NCBI RefSeq assembly: GCF_900167465.1 | Contig: NZ_FUWR01000007.1 | Span: 1-64,000 of the forward strand | Origin: Trichlorobacter thiogenes | GTDB taxonomy: Bacteria > Desulfobacterota > Desulfuromonadia > Geobacterales > Pseudopelobacteraceae | DNA: 64,000 bases | Direction: 5' to 3' | Shown here: positions 407 to 13,215 of the stretch, piece by piece | Layout of the letters: every line of letters starts with the position of its first letter | Numbering within the stretch: position 1 is the first letter of the stretch | The notes under the pieces: generated by a model | The model's database searches: none | What the model was told of the DNA's origin: nothing | Seen by the model: only the letters and a program-made list of their open reading frames with translations | Position numbers and translations under genes: made by a program

Positions 407-3100
407 ATGTCAAACAAAGAGCTGGCTAAGGGGTATGAACCCTATGAAGTAGAAAAGAAATGGTACGACGAGTGGCTTGGCAAGGGCTACTTTCATGCTG
501 ATGAAGCTTCCCCGCGTACACCGTACAGTATCGTCATCCCCCCCCCAAACGTAACCGGCGCTCTGCATATGGGGCATGCCCTCAACAATACCCTGCAGGA
601 TATCCTCTGCCGCTGGAAGCGGATGACCGGTCACAGCGTGCTCTGGATGCCCGGCACCGACCATGCCGGTATTGCCACCCAGAACGTGGTGGAGCGTCAA
701 TTAGCAGCAGAAGGCAAGGATCGTCACGATCTGGGGCGCGAGGCGTTTATTGAGCGGGTCTGGCAATGGAAGGCTGAGTCGGGCGGACAGATCATCGGTC
801 AGCTGAAGCGGCTGGGTGCCTCCTGTGACTGGGAGCGTGAGCGTTTTACCATGGATGCCGGTCTGTCCAAGGCGGTCCGCACCGTGTTTGTCAAGCTGTA
901 CGAAGACGGGCTGATCTACCGTGATAACCGGTTGATCAACTGGTGTCCCCGCTGCCATACCGCTCTTTCTGATATCGAGGTTGAGCACGAAGAGAAGAAG
1001 GGGCATCTCTGGCATATCCGTTACCCGGTGGTTGGCCAGCCGGGCCGTTTTGTAACCGTTGCCACCACCCGTCCTGAGACCATGCTGGGTGATACTGCGG
1101 TGGCGGTCCATCCTGAAGATGAACGCTATGCTGACCTGCACGGCGCCAAGGTGCTGTTGCCGCTGGTGAACCGTGAGATTCCGGTGGTTGCGGATGAGTA
1201 TGTGGACCGCGAGTTCGGCACCGGTGTGGTCAAGATTACCCCGGCCCATGACTTCAACGACTTTGAGGTGGGGGCACGTCACGGTCTGGACAAGATCAAT
1301 GTCTTTGACGAGTCGGGTATCATCAATGCTGCCGGACATCAGTATGAAGGGCTGGATCGTTTTGCTGTCCGTACAAAGATTGTAGAGGATCTGGAGGCCG
1401 CCGGGCTGCTGGAAAAGATCGACGATCACGGTCTGTCTGTGGGAGGCTGCTATCGCTGCAAAACTGTGGTGGAGCCGTATCTGTCTCTGCAGTGGTATGT
1501 CAAGGTTGGCCCGCTGGCTGAGCGTGCCCTGCAGGCGGTCAAGGATGGTCGCACTCGGATTCTGCCCAAGCAGTGGGAAAATACCTATTACGACTGGATG
1601 GAGAACATCCGAGACTGGTGTATTTCGCGCCAGATCTGGTGGGGCCACCGGATTCCGGCCTGGTTCTGTGATCACTGCGGTCATATTACCGTGTCCATGG
1701 ACGATCCAACTGCCTGTAGCCAGTGTGGAAGTGACGAGATACGTCAGGAAACCGATGTGCTGGATACCTGGTTCTCATCAGCGCTCTGGCCGTTTTCCAC
1801 CATGGGCTGGCCAGACAAGACTCCTGAGCTGAAACAGTTCTATCCCACCGCTACCCTGGTAACCGGTTTTGATATCCTCTTCTTCTGGGTGGCCCGGATG
1901 ATGATGATGGGGCTGCACTTTATGGATGAGGTGCCGTTCAAGGATGTCTATATCCATGCCCTGGTGCGGGATGCCCATGGTCAGAAGATGTCCAAATCAA
2001 AGGGCAACGTGATTGATCCGCTGACCGTGATCGATCAGTATGGCACCGATGCGTTCCGTTTTACCCTGGCTGCCTTTGCTGCCCAGGGCAGGGATATCAA
2101 GCTGGCTGAAGAGCGGATCTCCGGTTACCGTAACTTCTGTAACAAGGTCTGGAATGCAGCCCGTTTCACCATGATGAATCTGGAAGGGTTTGAACCGGAT
2201 GCGCTGGTTTTTGAGGATTTGCGCCTGAGCGAGTCAGATGAGTGGATTCTGCATCGCCTGAATGAAACAGCCCGCGCAACCAATCAGGCATTGGAAGAGT
2301 ACCGCTTTAACGAAGCAGCCATGACGCTGTACCAGTTTACCTGGAGCGAGTTCTGTGACTGGTATCTGGAGCTGTCAAAGCAGGAGCTGTACGGTGATGA
2401 CCCGATACGTCGTCGCACCACCCAGTACGTGCTCTGGACCGTGCTGGAACACCTGCTGCGGTTGCTGCACCCGATCATGCCGTTTATCACGGAAGAGATC
2501 TGGCAGACCCTGCCCAAGGGGGATCGCTGCAGCCTGCGTGGTTCCGGTGGTGATTGGCAGCCTTCCATCATGTTGGCCCCTTATCCGCAGGCCCGTGAAG
2601 ACTGGCAGTTTGAAGATGCGGCCAACCGGATGGAGCAGGTGATGGAGGTGATTTCTGCCATCCGTACTATCCGTGGCGAGATGGAAGTACCCCCATCCCG
2701 AGAAATAACGGTCATCCTTTCAACCGGCTCTCAGCATGCACAGGATCTGGCCTGTCTGTTTGAGTCAAAGATCAAAAGCATGGCCCGCGTGGGGCAGCTG
2801 ACCATCGGGCGTGATTTGCCAAGGCCGGAAGATGCTTCTGTGCAGCCGGCAGGTGAGTTCCAGGTCTTTGTGCCGTTAAAAGGGTTGGTGGATGTGGCTG
2901 AAGAGGAGAAACGGCTACTGAAAGAGATCGGTAAGCTGGATAAAGAGATCGAGCAGTTCTCGAAAAAGCTTGAAAACCCCAGCTTTGTTGACCGTGCTCC
3001 GGCTGATATTGTTGCCAAGGAAAAGGCAAAGCTGGCTGATGTTACCGCAAAGAAGGCGGTACTGGAAGAAAGTCTGGAGAAGATTAAAAAGCTGAAATAG
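407..3100 (+). CDS. valS: Valyl-tRNA synthetase
   Basis: Class I aminoacyl-tRNA synthetase that charges tRNA-Val in the cytoplasm and edits misactivated threonine. The 897-residue length is normal. The HIGH signature appears as HMGH at residues 54-57 after PPPNVTG, and the KMSKS loop is at 527-531. The large CP1 editing insertion lies between them. Two pairs of CxxC-type cysteines (CPRCH near 185, and CDHCGH with CSQCG near 425-445) suggest zinc-binding knuckles. The C-terminal 70 residues are rich in Lys and Glu and form the coiled-coil arm typical of ValRS. The ATG is preceded by a weak AGGG. The next gene begins 14 bases after the stop, suggesting co-transcription. Confidence 0.98.
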   Translation: MSNKELAKGYEPYEVEKKWYDEWLGKGYFHADEASPRTPYSIVIPPPNVTGALHMGHALNNTLQDILCRWKRMTGHSVLWMPGTDHAGIATQNVVERQLAAEGKDRHDLGREAFIERVWQWKAESGGQIIGQLKRLGASCDWERERFTMDAGLSKAVRTVFVKLYEDGLIYRDNRLINWCPRCHTALSDIEVEHEEKKGHLWHIRYPVVGQPGRFVTVATTRPETMLGDTAVAVHPEDERYADLHGAKVLLPLVNREIPVVADEYVDREFGTGVVKITPAHDFNDFEVGARHGLDKINVFDESGIINAAGHQYEGLDRFAVRTKIVEDLEAAGLLEKIDDHGLSVGGCYRCKTVVEPYLSLQWYVKVGPLAERALQAVKDGRTRILPKQWENTYYDWMENIRDWCISRQIWWGHRIPAWFCDHCGHITVSMDDPTACSQCGSDEIRQETDVLDTWFSSALWPFSTMGWPDKTPELKQFYPTATLVTGFDILFFWVARMMMMGLHFMDEVPFKDVYIHALVRDAHGQKMSKSKGNVIDPLTVIDQYGTDAFRFTLAAFAAQGRDIKLAEERISGYRNFCNKVWNAARFTMMNLEGFEPDALVFEDLRLSESDEWILHRLNETARATNQALEEYRFNEAAMTLYQFTWSEFCDWYLELSKQELYGDDPIRRRTTQYVLWTVLEHLLRLLHPIMPFITEEIWQTLPKGDRCSLRGSGGDWQPSIMLAPYPQAREDWQFEDAANRMEQVMEVISAIRTIRGEMEVPPSREITVILSTGSQHAQDLACLFESKIKSMARVGQLTIGRDLPRPEDASVQPAGEFQVFVPLKGLVDVAEEEKRLLKEIGKLDKEIEQFSKKLENPSFVDRAPADIVAKEKAKLADVTAKKAVLEESLEKIKKLK

Positions 3101-3114
3101 CCAGAGGAATAGTG

Positions 3115-4350
3115 ATGGGTGAGCTGGAAAGAATACTGCGTGAAGGCGCCGCATTGCACGAAGCCGGGCGGTTTGATGATGCCCTGGCCCTGTACGATGA
3201 CGCTGTAGGACGCTGGCCCACCCTGGCGCTGCTTTGGAACAACCGGGGTAATACCCTGCTTGAACTTGGGTTTCTGGATCAGGCAAGCAAAAGTTATCAG
3301 CAGGCCTTACAACTTGCCCCTTCTCTGCATGATAGCCGTGTGGCGTTGGCTACCTGTCTGCAGATGCAGGGAGAGGTACAGCAGGCCCTGGTTGAGTGCG
3401 CAAAGGTGCTAAAGGTTGCACCTGAACATGCTGAGGCCCATTGGAACTATGCCCTGTTGCTGCTGTTACAGGGGAACTATACTGCCGGTTTCAGAGAGTA
3501 CGAGTGGCGCTGGAAAAAGCGCCGCTTTACCTCGCCACTACGGGAGTTCTCCCAGCCACGCTGGCATGGCGGTGACATTTCCGGCAAGACAATCCTGGTC
3601 TACGCGGAACAAGGATTTGGCGATACCCTGCAGTTCTGCCGTTATCTGCCGTTATTGGTAGCCCGCGGGGTAAAGGTGCTGTTTGAATGCCATCAACCGC
3701 TGGTTGCTCTTATGCAGAGTCTTGGCATCGGCATCTCCGTGCTGCCGTTTGGCCACCCCCTGCCGGACTTTGACTTCCATCTGCCTCTGCTTTCGCTGCC
3801 CTACATGCTTGGCAGCAGCCTTGAGACTATTCCTTGTCAGACGCCTTATCTTGCTGCCCCGGAACAGGTTTTACCTTTTTGGCAGAGCGTTATGCCGATC
3901 TGTACAGGCCACAAGGTAGGACTGTGCTGGGCAGGTAAATCATACCCTGATCCAGGTCGGCGCTGTCCGCCTGGCTTTCTGGCACCGTTATCCGACCTTC
4001 CGAATGTAACCTGGGTTTCTCTGCAGATAGCAGAAAAAGAGTTTCGGCAACCGTTTCCTCTGCTGGATCTGACCATGCTGGTGCAGGATTTCGCTGACAC
4101 AGCAGCCCTGCTTGAGCAGCTTGATCTGGTGATAACCATTGATACGGCTGTGGCACATCTGGCCGGAGCGCTTGGCAAGCAGACCTGGCTGTTGCTGCCG
4201 TTTGCACCGGATTGGCGTTGGGGGTTGGAACGGAGTGATTGTCCCTGGTATCCGACCATCCGTCTTTTCAGACAGCAGGAAGCTGGTGACTGGAGCCAGG
4301 TGGTGGCAGAGGTTTCCTCAGGGTTGAACAGATTGATCTGCAGACATTAG
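3115..4350 (+). CDS. TPR protein with GT9-like (heptosyltransferase-fold) C-terminal domain
   Basis: A 411-residue cytoplasmic protein. Residues 1-125 hold about three tetratricopeptide repeats (NRGNTLLELGFLDQASKSYQ and following). The remainder resembles the glycosyltransferase family 9 / ADP-heptose transferase fold found in many TPR proteins, with YAEQGFGDTLQFCRYLP, GLCWAGK and ITIDTAVAHLAGALG, the usual nucleotide-sugar pocket segments. The substrate is unknown; protein or envelope glycan glycosylation is an inference. A GTG three bases upstream is also possible, but AGAGGA at 3103-3108 is better spaced for the ATG. The gene sits 14 bases behind valS and converges on the Kunitz gene, the two stop codons overlapping by four bases. 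Confidence 0.8.
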   Translation: MGELERILREGAALHEAGRFDDALALYDDAVGRWPTLALLWNNRGNTLLELGFLDQASKSYQQALQLAPSLHDSRVALATCLQMQGEVQQALVECAKVLKVAPEHAEAHWNYALLLLLQGNYTAGFREYEWRWKKRRFTSPLREFSQPRWHGGDISGKTILVYAEQGFGDTLQFCRYLPLLVARGVKVLFECHQPLVALMQSLGIGISVLPFGHPLPDFDFHLPLLSLPYMLGSSLETIPCQTPYLAAPEQVLPFWQSVMPICTGHKVGLCWAGKSYPDPGRRCPPGFLAPLSDLPNVTWVSLQIAEKEFRQPFPLLDLTMLVQDFADTAALLEQLDLVITIDTAVAHLAGALGKQTWLLLPFAPDWRWGLERSDCPWYPTIRLFRQQEAGDWSQVVAEVSSGLNRLICRH

Positions 4351-4847
4351 TCAAACATGACCTGCGGATTCAGTTCTGCCGGTGTCTTCCAGTCAATGCT
4401 GTACTTCTGCAGTAATATCCGCTTCTTTGTCTCCCAGATCAGATGTACGAACCCCATGCTGCCACGCTGTGGATGGTTGGCAAGCGTCTCTTTGACCTCA
4501 GCATCAATCTTTCCAAATACCTCAGTATAACGCGGGTCATCCTCAACCGGGTCATAGTACAGGCCAGAGGCGCGCTTTTTCAGTACCGGTTGTGTCGCTT
4601 CACACAGCTGTTGGCACGCGTGCAGGCTGTCAAAAGGCACCACCGGGCCACAACCGTCGTAAAAATAGGCAACGCATTTCCCGCTGGCCTGATCAAATCT
4701 GAATTTTTCAATCATCGCCTTGCAACGGCCATTAACCGGTTTTTGACGACATTTTTTCGGTAGATCGTTGCCAAAGGCTAACGCTGTAAGACTGAGTAGG
4801 GTCAAGAGAATCAATAAGCTGCTAAGAATAAGGCGAACAAGGGACAT
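4347..4847 (-). CDS. Secreted Kunitz/BPTI-domain protein (putative protease inhibitor)
   Basis: A 166-residue exported protein with a clear Kunitz (BPTI-like) domain, a fold mostly known from animals. A hydrophobic signal peptide (about residues 4-26) is followed by six cysteines at 33, 42, 58, 66, 78 and 82. Their spacing of 9-16-8-12-4 differs from aprotinin's 9-16-8-13-4 by one residue. Lys43 directly after the second cysteine occupies the P1 position, as in trypsin inhibitors (GRCKAM against GPCKAR), and AYFYDGC matches the TFVYGGC segment. An 84-residue tail of unknown function follows. The start at 4847 is chosen because GAGGT lies 8 bases upstream; the ATG at 4859 has no such site. The gene is divergent from the caspase-fold operon. 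The domain call is strong; the inhibitory role and its target are inferred. Confidence 0.88.
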   Translation of the reverse strand: MSLVRLILSSLLILLTLLSLTALAFGNDLPKKCRQKPVNGRCKAMIEKFRFDQASGKCVAYFYDGCGPVVPFDSLHACQQLCEATQPVLKKRASGLYYDPVEDDPRYTEVFGKIDAEVKETLANHPQRGSMGFVHLIWETKKRILLQKYSIDWKTPAELNPQVMFD

Positions 4848-4911
4848 GGCTGACCTCATTTCGTGTTGGTACCTGAACTATAACAGCATCAGATGAATCT
4901 GCAACACGAGC

Positions 4912-4939
4912 ATGACACCGATCAGTTGTGTGGTAAAAT
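4912..4939 (+). promoter_or_regulatory. Possible promoter for the membrane protein and caspase-fold genes
   Basis: ATGACA at 4912-4917 and TAAAAT at 4934-4939, 16 bases apart, lie in the gap between the divergent Kunitz gene and the gene starting at 4986. The -35 box is imperfect, so this is a moderate call. Confidence 0.4.
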
Positions 4940-4985
4940 AGAAATCAAGAATGTAAGTAGTGCCAGCTGTGAGGGAGAACTGTTT

Positions 4986-5291
4986 ATGCGCATTGCAATG
5001 CTGGTTGTCTTTCTCTGCTGCACTCTGTTCAGCCTGGTGACAGCCTACTTGGTAATCAATGCAGGGCAGTCTGGTAGCGCAATTCTCTTTCTCTCCTTTG
5101 GACTCTTGTTTGGTTGCCTGACCGGTGCACTTCTACAAGGAATGCGACGAGAGAAAATTACTGCTGAGGCTGGCCCTGTAGAGATGAAAAGAGAACAGAC
5201 GACCTTTGTCCCGCACTGGTTTGTGATGACTACTCTGTTGGTGACGGTTGTTATGGTGCTGGGCAGCATATTCTGGCGTGTCATACGGTGA
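4986..5291 (+). CDS. Small three-helix membrane protein of unknown function
   Basis: A 101-residue protein I do not recognise. It has hydrophobic segments at about residues 3-22, 29-50 and 77-97, with a short charged loop (MRREKITAEAGPVEMKREQ) between the second and third. This predicts an inner-membrane protein with the charged loop probably cytoplasmic. The start at 4986 is supported by GAGGGAGAA at 4971-4979; an upstream frame extension lacks a ribosome site. It lies between the Kunitz gene (divergent) and the caspase-fold gene (same strand, 114-base gap), so a role connected with that locus is possible but unproven. Confidence 0.65.
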   Translation: MRIAMLVVFLCCTLFSLVTAYLVINAGQSGSAILFLSFGLLFGCLTGALLQGMRREKITAEAGPVEMKREQTTFVPHWFVMTTLLVTVVMVLGSIFWRVIR

Positions 5292-5405
5292 CGCCCGTGG
5301 CGCTACAGGCATTATCTTCTTGCTGACTGGCGAGGTGCTTTCAGAAGGGATTGTATTGGAGTACGGGCGAGAGTACACCTGAAAGAACTGGAAGAGGTAA
5401 CGAGT

Positions 5406-6965
5406 ATGCGATGTCGATCTCTGTTGGTCATTCTGGCGTTACTCTGTATTGGGGGGACACATGTCCTGGCAGCACCTGTTCAAAGATCGCAAGGAAACAT
5501 GCGAGGCCTGCAGGTGCAGCCAAAGCCGGTGACAGACAATCGTCAGCGCGTGGCGCTAGTGGTCGGTAACAGCAGTTACACCTCATCCCCGCTTAAAAAT
5601 CCTGCCAATGATGCCCGTGCCATGGCTGTCAGTTTACGGCGGCTGGGGTTTGTGGTGGACGAGCGCATCAACTTGAACTATCTGGAGCTAAACAAGAGTA
5701 TTGAGGCCTTTGGGAAGAAGCTGAAAAGCGGCGGCATTGGGCTGTTCTACTACGCCGGCCACGGTATGCAGGTGCAGGGCAACAACTACCTGATTCCGGT
5801 AGATGCACAGATAGACGATGAGAATGAAGTTCGTTTCAAGGCGGTTGATGCCGGTCTGGTGCTGGCCAAGATGGAACAGGCGAGAAGCGATGTCAATATT
5901 GTCATCCTGGATGCCTGTCGAGATAACCCGTTCTCGCGTTCCTTCCGTTCAACTAGCCGCGGCCTGGCCAGTATGGATGCCCCCAGTGGCACCTTCATCG
6001 CCTATGCCACCGCGCCGGGCAAGACCGCTGCCGATGGTGGCGGCAGTAACGGTCTGTATACTGCTGAACTCATAAAAGTTCTGCAGACCCCAAGTCTCAC
6101 GCTGGAGCAGGTGTTCAAACGAACTCTCAAAGCGGTGCGCGAGAAATCGGGTAACAAACAGACCCCCTGGATGGCCTCGAACCTGGAGGGGGAGTTCTAC
6201 TTCGTGCCTCCTGCAGTCGTCAGTGATCCGAGGTCGTCATCCCTGCAATCAACGTTACCGCCTCCTCAGGTGGCGCAGCAACCGACGACCTTCTCAAACC
6301 CCCTCACCGACACCTTCACCGGTATGGAGTTTGTTTCTGTACCTGCAGGCTGTTTCACGGTAAACGGCGGACCGGTTTGTGTTGATGCCTTTAGCATCGG
6401 CAAGTTTGAAGTTACACAGAGCCAGTGGAAGAAGGTGATGGGTAACAACCCCTCACATTTTACCGAATGCGGTGACAGTTGTCCGGTAGAAGAGGTGAGC
6501 TGGCATGATGTTCAACAGTTTATTCAAAAGTTGAGTGCCCATACCGGTATGAACTATCGACTACCCACAGAGATAGAGTGGGTGTATGCCTGTAAAGCTG
6601 GCGGCAACCATGCATACTGTGGCAGCAACAACGTTAATGCAGTGGCATGGTATGGAGCTTACGGAGGCAGTAAGAAAGGTACCAGCAGAGAAACTACTAA
6701 CCCTGTTGGTCAGAAACAAGCGAATGCTTGGGGGGTGTACGATATGTCTGGCAACGTCTGGGAATGGGTACACGACTGGTATGGGGATAGCTATCCGTCC
6801 AGTTCTAAAAACCCGCAAGGCCCATCATCAGGGACGCAGCGAGTGATTCGAGGTGGTAGCTGGTACTCGAATCTACCGTATCTGCACACATCGTTTCGTC
6901 AGTATGAGGCGCCCGAAAGCCGATTGAATTTTTTGGGATTGCGTTTGGTTGCTCCAGTTAAGTGA
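5406..6965 (+). CDS. Exported caspase-fold (peptidase C14-like) protein with C-terminal SUMF/FGE-like domain
   Basis: A 519-residue fusion. Signal peptide at about 1-22. A caspase-like domain spans residues 46-265 and has the expected dyad, His119 in YYAGHG and Cys171 in LDACRDNP, preceded by RVALVVGNSSY and KNPANDA. A short Pro/Gln-rich linker near 275-300 leads to a formylglycine-generating-enzyme-like domain (about 306-519) recognisable by YRLPTEIEWVYAC, NVWEWVHDWYG and RVIRGGSW. I do not see the paired catalytic cysteines of true FGE, so this part is probably a binding (C-type-lectin-like) module. It is expected in the periplasm or outside the cell. It leads a tight operon, 21 bases ahead of the YdjM-like gene. 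Peptidase activity and substrate are inferred. Confidence 0.85.
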   Translation: MRCRSLLVILALLCIGGTHVLAAPVQRSQGNMRGLQVQPKPVTDNRQRVALVVGNSSYTSSPLKNPANDARAMAVSLRRLGFVVDERINLNYLELNKSIEAFGKKLKSGGIGLFYYAGHGMQVQGNNYLIPVDAQIDDENEVRFKAVDAGLVLAKMEQARSDVNIVILDACRDNPFSRSFRSTSRGLASMDAPSGTFIAYATAPGKTAADGGGSNGLYTAELIKVLQTPSLTLEQVFKRTLKAVREKSGNKQTPWMASNLEGEFYFVPPAVVSDPRSSSLQSTLPPPQVAQQPTTFSNPLTDTFTGMEFVSVPAGCFTVNGGPVCVDAFSIGKFEVTQSQWKKVMGNNPSHFTECGDSCPVEEVSWHDVQQFIQKLSAHTGMNYRLPTEIEWVYACKAGGNHAYCGSNNVNAVAWYGAYGGSKKGTSRETTNPVGQKQANAWGVYDMSGNVWEWVHDWYGDSYPSSSKNPQGPSSGTQRVIRGGSWYSNLPYLHTSFRQYEAPESRLNFLGLRLVAPVK

Positions 6966-6986
6966 GCTATGGGCTGAGGAGTCAGT

Positions 6987-7556
6987 ATGAACCCGGTTAC
7001 CCATCTGCTGCTGGGCTGGACTGTTGCCAATGTCGATACCAGTCTGAACCGGAGAGAGCGTACCGTCATTACGCTGGCCGGTGTAGCGCCTGACCTTGAT
7101 GGTCTTGGGCTGGTGGCTGAGGTGCTGACCCGTGGCAGCAAACATGAACTGCTTTGGTGGTCAAACTATCACCATACCGCCCTGCATAACATCAGCTTTG
7201 CTGTGCTGGTTGCCATTGTCGCCTTTCTGGTCACTGGTCGGCGTTGGCGGGTGGCCCTGCTGGCGTTTGCCAGTTTCCATATCCATCTGCTGGGTGATCT
7301 ACTGGGGGCGCGGGGGCCTGAAAACGATCACTGGCCGATACCATATCTGACGCCGTTTTCAGACCGTTGGCAGTGGATCTGGGACGGCCAGTGGGAATTG
7401 AATGCCTGGCCCAACTTCGTGATCACCGGCGTGTTGCTGGCTTTGACGTTCTATTGGGCCTGGAAACGTGGCTATTCGCCGTTGGAGATGGTTTCCTGCC
7501 GGGCTGATCAGGCCTTTGTGCAGACACTTAGGGAGAGGTTTCCCATCAGGAGGTAA
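6987..7556 (+). CDS. YdjM-like membrane-bound metal-dependent hydrolase family protein
   Basis: A 189-residue membrane protein resembling the YdjM/DUF457 family of predicted inner-membrane metal-dependent hydrolases. It has MNPVTHLLLGW at the start, APDLDG near residue 35, HHTALHNISFA near 60 and HIHLLGDLLG near 100. These conserved His and Asp residues are interleaved with hydrophobic helices (about 70-100 and 138-156). Activity for the family is poorly established. A GAGGAG precedes the ATG. The TPR-CHAT gene begins four bases after the stop, so this gene is translated between two caspase-fold proteins and probably shares their transcript. Confidence 0.7.
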   Translation: MNPVTHLLLGWTVANVDTSLNRRERTVITLAGVAPDLDGLGLVAEVLTRGSKHELLWWSNYHHTALHNISFAVLVAIVAFLVTGRRWRVALLAFASFHIHLLGDLLGARGPENDHWPIPYLTPFSDRWQWIWDGQWELNAWPNFVITGVLLALTFYWAWKRGYSPLEMVSCRADQAFVQTLRERFPIRR

Positions 7557-7560
7557 CTGC

Positions 7561-10500
7561 ATGACCAGTCGCGTTGTTATACCCGTTCTTTCCCTACTGT
7601 TGCTGGTCATCTTCTGTTCGCCCGGCTTTGCCGGTAAGAATGAGGCTGAAAACCTCTGGGAGGCGGGGAGTAAAGCTACTGAAACCAAGCGCTACCCGGA
7701 TGCGATCAGGCTGTTTGAACGTTCACTTGCTCTATGTGGTAATGATGTTGACTGTCGCTGGGCCAACCTGAACGGCCTGGGGGTGGTCTATGATGCCCTT
7801 GATCAGAATGAACGTGCGCGCAGCTATTACGAACAGACCCTGCAGCTGAGCCGTCAGCGTAATAATCCGGATGATCTGACCAGTGATCTGCTGAATCTGG
7901 GCGCGCTGTTGTACAAGGGGTTGGAGCAGCATCAGCGGGCCTTGCCGTTGCTGGAAGAATCACTGACCCTGGCACGCAGGTCAGGTAAGCAGGAAGATAT
8001 GGCGTTGCTGCTGTTTCATATCGGCACCGTCAAGACAACATTGGGGCGTTACCCTGAGGCGATCCGCGAGCTGCAGGAGTCGCTTGCCATCAACCGTCGT
8101 CTGAAAAACGATGCAGGGATTTCAAATGCTCTGGCAACCCTGGGCCAGGCCCATAATATGTCCGGCCAGTATAGCCAGGCTGTCGGATTTTATGATGAGG
8201 CGGTCGCTATCCAGCGTCGTGGCAAGCTGGATGAAGACCTTTGTTCAAGCCTAAACCGTAAAGGATTGAATGAGTTTGACCTGCGCAGGATTCCCAACGC
8301 CTTGACAACGTTTGATGAGGCATTGAGGCTTGCCAGACGCCTGGGGGATAAACGGCAGGAGGCGAATATCCTTAATAGCATCGGCGTGGTTCAAAAAAGT
8401 GCTGGACAGTATGAACAGGCTCGAAACTACTATCAGCAGACCTTGATCCTGGCCCGGCAGTTGGGGCGTAAAGGGATGCAGGCGGTGGCAAATAATAATA
8501 TTGGGGATGTCTATGCCGCCCTGGGCCAGCAGGACAGGGCGCTGTCTTTTTATCAGGAGTCATTACGGATTAATCGGGAGATCGGCGCCCGGCAGGATAT
8601 GGCGACCAATCTGAATAATATAGCCATGGTGTATTATCAAACCAAACGCTATGACGATGCAATCCGCTGGCATCAGCAGGCCCTTGAGCTGAAACGTAGT
8701 ATTGGCAACAAACTAGACATCGCCTTGGGCTTGAGTAACCTTGCTGCAGCCTATCTGTTTAAGGGGGATCTTGGCACAGCGGAACAGCTGCTGGATGAGC
8801 GCAGGCGTCTGCAGATCAGTACGAGCGGGGTCCACCTGCGACATCCCGGTCTGGTGGAGGTCTACCTGCAGACCGGTCGCTATGATCAGGCTCTGTCGCT
8901 CTTGCAACAGCAACCGCCAGCAACTCTGGCAGGAGAGCAAGTGGTGGCTGAGCATGAGATGCAGACCGGTCGGGCCTTGATGGGGCGTGGCGAGTATGCC
9001 GGGGCAAGCCGACATCTGCTGAAATCCTACCAGTTGTTGGAGGAGTTGCGTTCCGCAGTCGGCGAGCGTGGCTCATTCCTGACCGCAGGAGGTGGTGGTG
9101 GACGGTTTCGCACCTATCGTGCCCTGACTGCCAGCGTTGTAGAGCAGGCCTTGCGTGGTGAGTCGATTGTGCCGGAGCTGCGGAACTATGGCGGCAATAA
9201 TGCAGCTGCAGGCTTTTATTTTGCCGAGGCAAGCAAGGCCAGGACACTGATTGAGCGTGTGGCCGAGAGTGGGCGCAGTTCTGTGGCAGCGAGCGGTCTG
9301 CCGACTGCGCTGCGTGAAGAGGAACTGCAGCTCCGCCAGCAACTGGCTGCCCTGGATGCCGGTCGTGATCAGGCCGTGCGTGGCGGGGCAGCAGCTTATA
9401 GCCGGTATCAGCAGCAACGTCAGCCCCTGCGTCAGCAGCTTGATCGGTTGGCAACCCGCCTTCAGCGGGAGTATCCCCTGTATGCAGCCATCAACTACCC
9501 TCGTCCGATTGCGGCGGAACAGTTGCCATTGGCAGCCAATGAACTGCTGCTGGCCTATGCCCTGGGGGAGGATGCCAGCTACCTGTTTGTGGTCAGGAAA
9601 GGCGGTGTGCAACGGCTGGTGCGGATACCATTGAAGCGGACTGTGCTGGAAGAGAAGGTTAAGCGCTTTCTGGAACCGCTTACCAACCGCCATCAGCAGG
9701 ATTTTTCCCAACAGCAGGCTGCTGAATTGTACCGGCTGCTGTTGTCTGAAGCTCTGTCCGATGCACGCCCCACAGATCGGCTGATCATTGTGCCGGATGG
9801 TATCCTTGGTACCCTGCCGTTTGAGATCCTGGCTATGCCTGGCACTGCCTCCATCAAAGAGGCCAGCTATCTGGGGGATCGCTATGCGGTCTCCTACTAT
9901 CAGTCTGCCAGTCTGTTGGCGCTGAAACGGACCCTGCCGGCTGGGCAGCCGACCCGAACCCTGTTTGCCCTTGGAAATCCTGACTTTGGGACAACATCGG
10001 GAAGCCAGCAAGGCTTCCGTGGCCTATCAATAGTGCCGAAGCAGTACGGACAGCAAATCTTGTTTCCTTCTCTGCCTGAGACCGAGACCGAGGTGCGCAG
10101 GATTGCAGCCTTGCTGGGTACGGCGGTTCAACCGCCTGACATCCTGCTGGGACAGCAGGCCACAGAGGCGATGCTGAAACAATCGCCGCTGGGGGAGTAC
10201 CGTTACCTGCACTTTGCCACCCATGCCTCGCTACCGGGCATGATTCAGGAGGTGAATGAGCCGTTCATCCTGCTGAGCCAACGGGACAAGCGGAGCGGAA
10301 GCGATGGCTTCCTTACCCTGAGTGAGGTGCTTGATCTGAAGCTGAATGCTGAAATGGTGATGCTATCTGCCTGTGTGACTGGAGTAGGTAAAGAGGTGGA
10401 AGGAGAAGGTGTGGCCAATTTTGCCCGGGCCTTCCAGTCGGCCGGTGCGGGCAGTGTGGTGGTCAGCCTGTGGGAAGTGGCCTCGGAACCGGCGGTGGAG

Positions 10501-10638
10501 TATGTGGCGCTCTTTTACAGCTATCTCAAGCAGGGCAAGCCCCACGCTCAGGCACTGAAGCTGGCACGTGAGCAGATGCGCAAGAAGTATCCCAACCCGT
10601 TTTACTGGGGTGTGTTTGTGCTGCACGGAGAAGGGTAA
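7561..10638 (+). CDS. Exported TPR-CHAT protein (caspase-fold)
   Basis: A 1025-residue protein with a signal peptide (about 1-25). An array of ten or so tetratricopeptide repeats (about 25-450) has recurring ALSFYQESL, ARNYYQQTL and AIRWHQQAL helices. After a helical linker comes a C-terminal CHAT domain (about 700-1025). The CHAT dyad is visible: His888 in HFATHAS and Cys938 in LSACVTG. The last 60 residues contain the expected VVVSLWEVAS and PFYWGVFVLHG strands. The start at 7561 follows a perfect AGGAGG at 7548-7553, so an overlapping upstream start is rejected. CHAT proteins are related to separase and caspases. Here export suggests an envelope role; TPRs probably bind a partner. Substrate unknown. 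Confidence 0.88.
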   Translation: MTSRVVIPVLSLLLLVIFCSPGFAGKNEAENLWEAGSKATETKRYPDAIRLFERSLALCGNDVDCRWANLNGLGVVYDALDQNERARSYYEQTLQLSRQRNNPDDLTSDLLNLGALLYKGLEQHQRALPLLEESLTLARRSGKQEDMALLLFHIGTVKTTLGRYPEAIRELQESLAINRRLKNDAGISNALATLGQAHNMSGQYSQAVGFYDEAVAIQRRGKLDEDLCSSLNRKGLNEFDLRRIPNALTTFDEALRLARRLGDKRQEANILNSIGVVQKSAGQYEQARNYYQQTLILARQLGRKGMQAVANNNIGDVYAALGQQDRALSFYQESLRINREIGARQDMATNLNNIAMVYYQTKRYDDAIRWHQQALELKRSIGNKLDIALGLSNLAAAYLFKGDLGTAEQLLDERRRLQISTSGVHLRHPGLVEVYLQTGRYDQALSLLQQQPPATLAGEQVVAEHEMQTGRALMGRGEYAGASRHLLKSYQLLEELRSAVGERGSFLTAGGGGGRFRTYRALTASVVEQALRGESIVPELRNYGGNNAAAGFYFAEASKARTLIERVAESGRSSVAASGLPTALREEELQLRQQLAALDAGRDQAVRGGAAAYSRYQQQRQPLRQQLDRLATRLQREYPLYAAINYPRPIAAEQLPLAANELLLAYALGEDASYLFVVRKGGVQRLVRIPLKRTVLEEKVKRFLEPLTNRHQQDFSQQQAAELYRLLLSEALSDARPTDRLIIVPDGILGTLPFEILAMPGTASIKEASYLGDRYAVSYYQSASLLALKRTLPAGQPTRTLFALGNPDFGTTSGSQQGFRGLSIVPKQYGQQILFPSLPETETEVRRIAALLGTAVQPPDILLGQQATEAMLKQSPLGEYRYLHFATHASLPGMIQEVNEPFILLSQRDKRSGSDGFLTLSEVLDLKLNAEMVMLSACVTGVGKEVEGEGVANFARAFQSAGAGSVVVSLWEVASEPAVEYVALFYSYLKQGKPHAQALKLAREQMRKKYPNPFYWGVFVLHGEG

Positions 10639-10648
10639 GTCATTATGC

Positions 10649-11851
10649 TCAGGTTAAGCTGAGTACCTTTTTCATCTCCTTAATCAGCACATCAACCTCC
10701 ATCGGCTTGGGAACATAGCCGTCAAATCCTGAATTAAGTAGCTGTTTCTTTTCCTCCTGCAGGGCGTGGGCTGTCAGGGCGATAATCGGTATGTGCTTCT
10801 CTGCGTTGCCTTCTTCTTTCCTGATGGTTTCAGTTGCGGCAATGCCATTCAACAGTGGCATCTGGATATCCATCAGGATCAGATCAAAACTCTTTTCCCG
10901 CCAAAGCTGCAGCGCTTCTTTGCCATTGTTGGTACTGGTGACCTGATGTCCCATCCGCTCCAGGATGGTGACCGCAAACTTCTGGTTGATAGCGTTGTCT
11001 TCTGCCAGAAGGATCTGTAATGCCGGGCCTTCCCATTGTGAAGAGAGGGTGTCACGTTCTTCCTCTGCATCGAATGCAGCGGTTCTCCGTGCAACAATAA
11101 ACGGCAGGGCCAGATAAAAAGTGCTACCGGTCCCAACGGTGCTTTCGGCCCAGATTCTTCCGCCCATCAGTTCGACCAAGCGTCTGCTGATAGAAACTCC
11201 CAACCCTTTTGCACCCAGTGGCCTGTCTATAGTTTTTTTCTTCTGCTGGAACGGCTTAAAGAGTTTGGCCAGTTCTTCAGCGTCAATACCGGTACCGGTA
11301 TCGCTGATACTGAGTTGTAGCAGGACCTGGTCGTCATGTTGCTCCATTATGCCAACGGTAATTCGAACGGTTCCTTTGGCTGTGTACTTAATGGCATTGC
11401 CCAGCAGGTTGAGGATGACCTGTTTGGTGTGTAGCTGATCCCCCCTGAGGGAGTCTGGAACCGTGTGGGGGATGTCGATCAGCAGATCCAGGCCTTTGAG
11501 GTGAAGGTCTGAATGTTGGGTCTTGATGATGTTGTTGATGGTGCCGCGCAGACTAAAGTCAACCTCTTCCAGTTCAACCTGACCATCTTCAATCTTGGAG
11601 AAGTCAATAATATCGTTAATCAGATACATCAGGCTTTTGGCAGAGGTCTCAAGGCAATCAAGATACTCTTTTTGAGTGTTGTCCAGCGGTGTGGTGCGCA
11701 GAAGTTGAGCCATACCGATTACCCCGTTCATCGGGGTACGGATCTCGTGGCTCATGTTGGTTAAAAACTCGTTCCGTGCTACACGGGCCTGTTCTGACGA
11801 ACTGGTGGCCAGGCGTGCGGGTTTTTTGCTGTTTCTGCGGGCAGGCGCCAT
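10649..11851 (-). CDS. Hybrid sensor histidine kinase without a sensor domain
   Basis: A 400-residue soluble protein. The HisKA domain has His35 in NMSHEIRTP. The HATPase domain has the N-box GNAIKYTAKG (Asn152), DTGTGID and GAKGLGVSISRRL. A receiver domain (about 278-398) has phosphoacceptor Asp328 in LILMDIQMP. No transmembrane, PAS or GAF segment precedes the HisKA, so input must come from a partner, or the gene has lost its sensor. Starts at 11851 and 11896 are both possible. A start at 11959 is unlikely because it lies inside the lysC terminator. The gene converges on the TPR-CHAT gene with a 10-base gap. Its output partner is not in the window. Confidence 0.85.
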   Translation of the reverse strand: MAPARRNSKKPARLATSSSEQARVARNEFLTNMSHEIRTPMNGVIGMAQLLRTTPLDNTQKEYLDCLETSAKSLMYLINDIIDFSKIEDGQVELEEVDFSLRGTINNIIKTQHSDLHLKGLDLLIDIPHTVPDSLRGDQLHTKQVILNLLGNAIKYTAKGTVRITVGIMEQHDDQVLLQLSISDTGTGIDAEELAKLFKPFQQKKKTIDRPLGAKGLGVSISRRLVELMGGRIWAESTVGTGSTFYLALPFIVARRTAAFDAEEERDTLSSQWEGPALQILLAEDNAINQKFAVTILERMGHQVTSTNNGKEALQLWREKSFDLILMDIQMPLLNGIAATETIRKEEGNAEKHIPIIALTAHALQEEKKQLLNSGFDGYVPKPMEVDVLIKEMKKVLSLT

Positions 11852-11943
11852 AACAATATCCAATGTGGTACAAGTAGTGACTACGGTTTTAAGCATACCA
11901 TGCTCTACACCATAGGCAAGCGGTCTGAACGGAATTGCCTGAA

Positions 11944-11983
11944 AACAGAAAAGGGACACCGGTATGGTATCCCCTTTTCTGTT
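11944..11983 (-). terminator. Intrinsic terminator after lysC
   Basis: Perfect 12-bp arms (AACAGAAAAGGG at 11944-11955 and CCCTTTTCTGTT at 11972-11983) enclose a loop that can extend the stem further. On the minus strand the stem ends in a T-rich run. It closes the long minus-strand series ending with lysC. Confidence 0.8.
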
Positions 11984-12000
11984 ACGTCATATACGGCTGT

Positions 12001-13215
12001 TTATCCCTGCAGGCCGAACTCTTCGTGGAGAACCCGTACAGCCAGTTCGGTGTATTTCTCGTCAATCACCACAGAAACCTTGATTTCAGAGGTGGAGATC
12101 ATGCCGATGTTGATGTTGTTCTTGGCCAGCACAGCAAACATACGGGTGGCAACACCGGCATGGCTGCGCATACCCAGGCCGACGATGGAGATCTTGCTGA
12201 TGTTTTCATCAGCCTGAACCTCTTTAGCCTGAATCTCTTTGGCTGCTTCGTTGGTGATCAGCAGGGCCTGTTTCAGGTCGGCCTTGGTGACGGTGAAGGT
12301 GAAGTCGGTCAGGCCGTCATGGCTGACGTTTTGAACGATCATGTCGACTGAAATAGCCGCATCGGAAAGCGGGGTGAGCAATTTTGCTGCAATGCCGGGC
12401 TTGTCAGGCACTCCCAGTACGGCAATCTTGGCTTCATTCTTGTCGTACGCAACTCCGGAAACGAGAATCCCTTCCATATCCTTATCCTCCCTGGTAACCA
12501 TGGTACCGGTGTTTTCATTCAGGCTAGAGCGGACATGAATGTCCACATTAAATTTCTTGGCAAACTCAACCGAGCGGATCTGCAGCACCTTTGCACCAAG
12601 GCTGGCCAGTTCCAGCATCTCGTCGTAGGAGACCTTTTCCACCTTGCGGGCCTCTTTACAGACGTTGGGGTCAGTGGTGTAGACGCCGTCTACGTCGGTG
12701 TAGATCTCGCAGACATCAGCCTTGAGGGCAGCAGCAAGGGCAACGGCAGAGGTGTCTGAGCCGCCGCGACCAAGGGTGGTCAGGTTGCCGTCTTTGTCCA
12801 TACCCTGGAAGCCAGCCACCACCACAATGTTGCCAGCCTTCAGATCGGCACGCACCTTGGTGTCGTCAATGCTTTCAATCCGGGCCTTGGAAAAGGTGCT
12901 GTCGGTGATGATCGGTACCTGCCAGCCCATGTATGACTTGGCTTTGTACCCCAGGGATTTCAGGTACATTGACAACAGGCCGATGGTGACCTGCTCGCCG
13001 GTTGCAACCACCACGTCATACTCACGGTTGTCAGGGATATCCATCATCTCATTGGCCAGGGCCACCAGCTTGTTGGTCTCCCCTGACATGGCAGAAACAA
13101 CTACCACTACCTCGTTACCCGCCTCGTAGGTCTTGATGATCCGCTTGGCGACGTTCTTGATTCGGTCTGTGGTGCCGACCGAGGTCCCTCCATATTTCTG
13201 GACTACCAGTGCCAT
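12001..13215 (-). CDS. lysC: Aspartate kinase
   Basis: Phosphorylates aspartate, the first step toward lysine, threonine, methionine and diaminopimelate. At 404 residues it is the monofunctional type with two C-terminal ACT domains (about 265-404) that bind feedback inhibitors. The amino-acid-kinase signature KYGGTSVG begins at Lys7; GRGGSDTSAVALAAAL and TDVDGVYTTDP are also present. GGAG lies ahead of the ATG. It is the last gene of the minus-strand cluster, 42 bases after tsaE, with no lysine riboswitch visible in that short gap. Regulation is therefore likely by ACT-mediated feedback. Confidence 0.97.
   Translation of the reverse strand: MALVVQKYGGTSVGTTDRIKNVAKRIIKTYEAGNEVVVVVSAMSGETNKLVALANEMMDIPDNREYDVVVATGEQVTIGLLSMYLKSLGYKAKSYMGWQVPIITDSTFSKARIESIDDTKVRADLKAGNIVVVAGFQGMDKDGNLTTLGRGGSDTSAVALAAALKADVCEIYTDVDGVYTTDPNVCKEARKVEKVSYDEMLELASLGAKVLQIRSVEFAKKFNVDIHVRSSLNENTGTMVTREDKDMEGILVSGVAYDKNEAKIAVLGVPDKPGIAAKLLTPLSDAAISVDMIVQNVSHDGLTDFTFTVTKADLKQALLITNEAAKEIQAKEVQADENISKISIVGLGMRSHAGVATRMFAVLAKNNINIGMISTSEIKVSVVIDEKYTELAVRVLHEEFGLQG

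Follow-up and report, generated by a model that had tools for sequence, protein, structure and literature searches.

Bacterial metacaspases are described with fusions to WD40, TPR and formylglycine-generating enzyme (FGE)-sulfatase domains and occasionally in operons that hold up to three of them (PMC3501461, 2012), orthocaspases are reported to cleave after positively charged residues (PMC6426788), and MALT1 is characterised as an Arg-specific paracaspase in which Asp365 and Asp462 sit in the S1/Arg pocket (PMC4357240). Here, we analyse a block of genes within a stretch of 64,000 nucleotides from Trichlorobacter thiogenes (contig NZ_FUWR01000007.1, positions 1 to 64,000; this whole stretch is called the window). 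In this block, a secreted Kunitz protein stands opposite a small membrane protein and a run of three genes for a C14 caspase with a SUMF domain (C14-SUMF), a YdjM-like membrane protein and a TPR-CHAT protein (Table 1), a layout that an earlier note on this DNA had described and whose coordinates and gaps hold. The island shares with the bacterial metacaspases and orthocaspases of family C14 the p20 fold, the His/Cys dyad, the acidic S1 pocket, the domain fusions and the multi-caspase operons, and differs from them in its one to five exported-type caspases with interchangeable sensors, placed at a fixed site together with TPR-CHAT and Kunitz proteins. With the CHAT proteases (PF12770), such as Csx29 of type III-E CRISPR, the TPR-CHAT protein has in common a TPR array and a C-terminal CHAT domain with His and Cys. 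Unlike Csx29, it is predicted to be exported, and its CHAT part matched Csx29 in phmmer with an E value of 0.16, which is no clear sequence relation; no type III-E CRISPR-Cas genes were present among the neighbours scanned (3112-11959), where no search for CRISPR was made. The Kunitz protein resembles Kunitz/BPTI trypsin inhibitors and bacterial ecotin (PMC9904509) in its six cysteines, its Lys-Ala reactive site and its secretion, and departs from the Kunitz/BPTI proteins in being bacterial and in carrying a conserved helical C-terminal extension. What is new here is the arrangement, since the protein families, the multi-caspase operons and such domain fusions are already known (PMC3501461), and we found no description of this island in the open-access literature of PMC.

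First, our comparisons support the idea of a system in a changed form, in which a conserved exported TPR-CHAT protein is accompanied by swappable caspases at a fixed chromosomal site. The set of four genes does not form a conserved unit: C14-SUMF and YdjM are exchangeable or decaying, and other caspases replace them. We searched 141 genomes of the order with four of the window's island proteins, and 15 genomes of the genus (here the Trichlorobacter-like Geobacteraceae, including the window's own genome G000 of 3.57 Mb) with the left flank gene, C14 and CHAT. The island site is fixed between the valS-TPR/glycosyltransferase flank and lysC. A TPR-CHAT orthologue, 72-89% identical to that of the window, is found in 7/15 genus genomes, and a Kunitz orthologue in six, all of them among these seven; in the seventh, G133, completeness is 53% and the TPR-CHAT contig breaks off shortly upstream of the gene, and G134 adds Kunitz remnants only. 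Kunitz and TPR-CHAT lie on a single contig in four genomes (G000, G126, G130 and G135), and in G138 and G129 the two halves of the island are on separate contigs which end inside it. A C14 caspase stands upstream of TPR-CHAT in 6/6 readable genomes (G000, G126, G129, G130, G135 and, as a C-terminal fragment, G133); G138, where a YdjM remnant alone is followed by the contig end, was left out of this count. Co-occurrence, which the earlier note had proposed as a check, thus holds for Kunitz with TPR-CHAT in six genus genomes and for a caspase in every readable island, and fails for the exact set of genes. Close relatives of TPR-CHAT come from Trichlorobacter sp., Geobacter sp. and metagenome-assembled genomes of Geobacteraceae, on named contigs. 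Taken together, we tentatively read the window block as one allele of a chromosomal hotspot that may encode an extracytoplasmic caspase-type protease module with TPR-CHAT as its core, a reading that is quite possible and far from secure.

Second, the genes between Kunitz and TPR-CHAT change from species to species. By Pfam, this interval contains the small membrane protein, C14-SUMF and YdjM in G000; in G126, again the small membrane protein, here with a C14 protein whose propeller matches are weak; a C14 protein of 953 aa and a PDZ-thioredoxin-WD40-C14 protein in G130; and a WD40-C14 protein, two C14-SUMF proteins, a YdjM remnant and a PDZ-S41-C14 protein in G135. In G129, a 143-aa protein is preceded by an N-terminal WD40 part and a C-terminal WD40-C14 part that lie on two contigs, and in G133 the end of a C14 caspase is followed by a similar 143-aa protein upstream of TPR-CHAT. 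Between Kunitz and TPR-CHAT there are one to four exported caspases, and overall one to five C14 proteins beside TPR-CHAT, the partner of the C14 domain changing by species among SUMF/C-type-lectin-like, WD40 propeller, PDZ-S41 and PDZ-thioredoxin domains. In G126, the open reading frame (ORF) of 1094 residues overlaps with the gene of the small membrane protein; the true start of this ORF lies further downstream, at the beginning of a signal-like stretch. To the right of TPR-CHAT, a histidine kinase precedes lysC in G000, G126, G138 and G135; G135 has two more ORFs and one more WD40-C14 between TPR-CHAT and this kinase, and in G130 the kinase is replaced by an MFS transporter with further ORFs. 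Two of the fusions are unusual exported-type proteins in their own right, namely PDZ-S41 protease-C14 (L089 6889-9285) and PDZ-thioredoxin-WD40-C14 (L091 6946-9996). The 143-aa protein of G129 and G133 (L095 3870-4301, L096 263-694), with one hydrophobic segment and no Pfam match, lies between caspase and TPR-CHAT.

Such turnover of the middle genes could also arise if functionally unrelated genes had gathered in a permissive place flanked by two convergent genes through hotspot insertion, deletion and recombination, with no shared pathway, an explanation that we regard as rather unlikely. It is favoured by species that have no island at the site: the left flank adjoins lysC with zero or one ORF between them in G127, G136, G137, G132 and G125, and has other neighbours in G128 and G131, the best match in G131 being just 46% identical. 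It is likewise favoured by G134, in which the left flank adjoins the histidine kinase, the last 12 Kunitz codons are kept in the right place (L112 1053-1088) and a second contig carries the last 22 beside the left flank gene (L180 3872-3937); because these terminal codons are all that remains, G134 likely once had the Kunitz gene and lost it by deletion. YdjM is found elsewhere in the genus as remnants only, in the sister genomes G135 and G138, and the Kunitz tree disagrees with the TPR-CHAT tree. The Kunitz tree pairs G000 with G126 (support 0.997), unlike the flank tree, and it is in these two species that the small membrane protein was found. In G135, synonymous divergence (dS) is 2.67 for Kunitz, which is near saturation, compared to 0.67 for the flank gene and 0.61 for TPR-CHAT, and synonymous sites are saturated between the window's C14-SUMF and its positional counterpart in that genome. 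Against a mere gathering of genes stand the exported-type C14 that readable islands always have between Kunitz and TPR-CHAT, the recurrence of CHAT-C14 proximity at a second genus locus and in Nitrospirota, and the history of TPR-CHAT itself, whose tree has the topology of the left flank's for the six shared species and which is under strong purifying selection by its ratio of nonsynonymous to synonymous rates (dN/dS 0.10-0.11 in three comparisons). The CHAT His and Cys are kept in 18/18 aligned rows. The island looks, as far as the sequences tell, like a mosaic in which TPR-CHAT has been mostly vertical and the caspases and the Kunitz end have been exchanged.

Third, C14 caspases lie near CHAT proteins more often than uniform placement would predict. 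In the genus, a C14 gene is located within 10 kb of 8/19 CHAT matches, with about 0.36 expected, and these eight comprise five loci of the island and three at a second locus. This proximity speaks for the regulated proteolysis module that the earlier note had suggested, in which the tie to the inhibitor is the weak part. Outside the genus we found 20 TPR-CHAT loci and counted the nearer 12 (36-56% identity in the best segments, some fragmentary), leaving out eight with more distant or short matches (L169-L176). C14 is present in the examined flanks of 3/12, compared to 0.39 expected from the C14 density of the genomes (Poisson P 0.007): directly upstream in L167, at a distance of about 4 kb on the same strand in L158 and of about 5 kb on the opposite strand in L163. 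A model made from genus C14 domains only returned the same three loci among all 20. The second genus locus (G128, G133 and G132; L107 2462-6264, L178 and L179, respectively) combines a different CHAT protein, of lipoprotein type and about 770 aa, with an ankyrin-C14 protein in a gene order that varies among genomes, and G136 has this lipoprotein-type CHAT protein without C14. Clusters of several C14 domains within about 8-14 kb, further multi-caspase arrays, were also seen (G147:C68:86406-100256, G148:C39:12180-21697 and G144:C212:18277-26744), in genomes reached via TPR-CHAT relatives.

Several observations weigh against the reading of the block as one allele of a protease hotspot. No C14 lies within 10 kb of 11/19 genus CHAT matches, although some of these are at contig ends and the C14 fragment of G133:C35 was missed in the count, and the genomes counted are related, so that the proximity counts are not independent. 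Likewise, 9/12 extra-genus TPR-CHAT loci have no C14 in the examined flanks, and the CHAT protein can therefore do without a linked caspase. The S1 aspartates discussed below are common to all examined genus C14 domains and do not single out the island. Between G000 and G126, dS is 0.62 for TPR-CHAT, 1.12 and 1.10 for the flanks and 0.43 for lysC, and because the TPR-CHAT value is below that of the flanks, an exchange of TPR-CHAT or a difference in rate is possible. Moreover, scans of 4300-10800 gave two promoter sites and seven terminator sites, compared to 4.0 and 6.3 expected in shuffles.

The two proteases of the window belong to different caspase folds and, as the earlier note had it, both have intact His/Cys dyads, His119/Cys171 in C14-SUMF and, by codon counting, His888/Cys938 in TPR-CHAT. 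The C14 caspase of C14-SUMF spans approximately residues 46-265 and precedes a C-terminal SUMF/C-type-lectin-like domain. From the 32 genus C14 matches, 31 domains were examined for active-site residues, and all 31 keep His119/Cys171 together with Asp69 and Asp169 of the S1 pocket; the same dyad and the two aspartates are present in three Nitrospirota C14 domains. MALT1 is the nearest solved match of the C14 part by sequence and by fold (the SUMF half of the structure model was poor, and the C14 half alone was used), and in our reading of the alignment Asp69/Asp169 align with MALT1 Asp365/Asp462. Since these aspartates are conserved, the genus caspases are predicted to cleave after Arg or Lys. 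The profile of the EACC1-associated caspase (NF047832) scored 63.8 bits on C14-SUMF, below its cut-off of 140. Among solved structures, the SUMF domain best matches a variable protein of Treponema denticola (2y3c, E 1.1e-29), which likens it to the C-type-lectin/FGE variable proteins of diversity-generating retroelements (Treponema TvpA). Unlike the setting of such retroelement targets, the window genome has zero reverse transcriptase (PF00078) matches, and a retroelement reading of SUMF was rejected for this genome. An FGE reading was rejected too, as the window protein has no Cys after the RVIRGGSW stretch, where we take the C-terminal catalytic cysteine pair of FGE to lie. With the FGE cysteines absent and no reverse transcriptase match in the genome, the SUMF part is most simply a binding domain. 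G000 has a second exported-type C14 caspase of 1088 aa, located beside a DUF4384 protein (L186 3471-8160, G000:C38).

Hydrophobic N-terminal export signals are predicted, from hydropathy and reading, in the Kunitz protein, C14-SUMF and TPR-CHAT, in line with the signal peptides that had been ascribed to both proteases. If the hotspot encodes a protease module, this module would be periplasmic or located at the surface, where sensor-caspases may recognise, outside the cytoplasm, a ligand that is damaged, foreign or derived from the cell itself, cleave after Arg or Lys, and work together with the common TPR-CHAT protease or by way of it; the TPR array of this protease could bind partners or substrates. 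The small membrane protein and YdjM would be accessory, and the Kunitz protein, encoded on a divergent transcript, would most likely block outside trypsin-like proteases as ecotin does, sharing the hotspot without being essential to the switch. The rapid turnover of sensor domains at a fixed site, which we take to resemble that of defence hotspots, could instead point to an anti-phage or anti-predator suicide system, with sensor caspases that detect envelope attack and a TPR-CHAT protein that kills the cell. Caspase-type, CHAT and C-type-lectin/FGE-type domains are indeed part of putative bacterial conflict systems (PMC10907252). However, when the five island proteins were compared with PADLOC-DB 2023, no set of system proteins matched: there was a partial match to a 'caspase' profile, one to a generic TPR profile and two that were weak, and a known defence system was therefore rejected; Pfam found no nuclease or STAND NTPase among seven proteins scanned (3112-11959), and the own genome offers no reverse transcriptase match for sensor diversification. 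In addition, phage-sensing systems are mostly cytoplasmic, whereas export signals are predicted on the window proteases and on those island caspases with a readable start, and we consider a suicide system unlikely.

Finally, the Kunitz protein is a frequent but separable neighbour of the TPR-CHAT/caspase unit. Six Cys, the reactive site Cys46-Lys47-Ala48 (its Lys presumably being P1, by analogy with BPTI) and the helical C-terminal extension (approximately residues 91-170) are kept in 10/10 orthologues. In the structure model the helices of the extension are confidently predicted and have no convincing fold match in the PDB (best E 0.63), and the Kunitz domain itself is poorly predicted, with low confidence. 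Whole-gene positive selection was rejected (dN/dS 0.11-0.23 in three comparisons, the G135 value resting on a nearly saturated dS), and so were a plasmid origin (no plasmid match) and a viral origin (no relative among viral contigs). The P1 Lys, together with the two S1 aspartates of the examined genus caspases, could mean that Kunitz is a dedicated brake, its reactive-site Lys entering the acidic S1 pockets of the caspases (or CHAT) and keeping them off until it is removed. In support of a brake, all six genus Kunitz genomes have TPR-CHAT, and a search with PF00089 found no stand-alone trypsin in the own genome, where the two matches are both HtrA-type with PDZ, so that a classical endogenous trypsin target is missing by this search. 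A peptide resembling an ecotin-like inhibitor also reduced Leishmania metacaspase activity (PMC5386556). The Kunitz domain is, however, modelled with low confidence, and genus caspases that lie outside the island have the acidic S1 pocket too. Kunitz inhibitors as a rule act on serine proteases. Furthermore, four extra-genus genomes (G024, G063, G092 and G123) have a close Kunitz orthologue and no orthologue of this TPR-CHAT, with no C14 match in G024, G063 and G092 and one weak partial C14, elsewhere, in G123; in G063 the Kunitz gene shares a strand with YdjM and a serpin. A dedicated brake is thus distinctly improbable, and it is very improbable that a protein with a serine-protease-inhibitor fold and a Lys site inhibits the cysteine proteases of an extracytoplasmic caspase cascade acting through TPR-CHAT. 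If it did, this would be a protease-inhibitor pair across catalytic classes outside the bacterial cytoplasm. Because Kunitz is also found apart from caspases, in one genome close to a serpin, and the own genome lacks a classical trypsin by the PF00089 search, we believe that Kunitz more probably shields the cell from trypsin-like proteases outside than takes part in the switch. This is consistent with the protection against outside proteases proposed for ecotin (PMC9904509), and agrees with the earlier note's view that the inhibitor may face outside enzymes, which the four extra-genus genomes make a better fit than a Kunitz-caspase module. The G063 locus itself (L097, G063:C232, 4265-6692), where the genes for a serpin, a YdjM-like protein and Kunitz follow in this order on one strand, is a candidate bacterial protease-inhibitor operon and brings YdjM and Kunitz together outside the island too.

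The island offers, at one site in related bacteria, a natural allele series made up of a CHAT protein that is conserved and exported, sensor-caspases that can be swapped, and relatives that lack the island. Its function is thereby accessible to experiments that delete or exchange these genes, and direct biochemical tests could build on the predicted Arg/Lys specificity and on the reactive-site Lys of Kunitz.

Table 1. Genes and signals of the island and its flanks in the window
Feature	Position	Strand	Remarks
valS	407-3100		upstream of left flank gene
Left flank TPR/glycosyltransferase-9-like protein	3112..4350	+	convergent with Kunitz, 4-base overlap; flank conserved
Secreted Kunitz protein, 170 aa	4347..4859	-	PF00014 E 8.7e-10
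Promoter-like site 5' of small membrane protein	4912..4939	+	weak evidence
Small membrane protein, 101 aa, about three hydrophobic segments	4986..5291	+	
C14-SUMF, exported C14 caspase	5406..6965	+	PF00656 E 6e-40, PF03781 E 2.2e-38
YdjM-like membrane protein	6987..7556	+	PF04307 E 1.2e-11
Exported TPR-CHAT protein, 1025 aa, conserved core gene of island	7561..10638	+	PF12770 E 9e-61, many TPRs
Terminator-like hairpin 3' of TPR-CHAT	10646..10665	+	weak evidence
Right flank histidine kinase-receiver	10649..11959	-	
lysC	12001-13215		beyond histidine kinase-receiver

The locus is more than a chance assembly, since orthologous loci are present in sister species. The spacing of 21 and 4 bases in the three-gene run assumes the ATG at 7561 as the start of TPR-CHAT, whose longest ORF begins at a GTG at 7468, inside YdjM. 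Relatives of YdjM with 41-47% identity occur in a different genus within the order. A start of the small membrane protein gene at 4893 was dropped in favour of the one listed, an ATG after an AGGGAGA stretch, which is most likely the true start; the resulting 101-aa form matches, with 60% identity, the protein at the same place in G126, the only genome with a relative among the loci compared for it.

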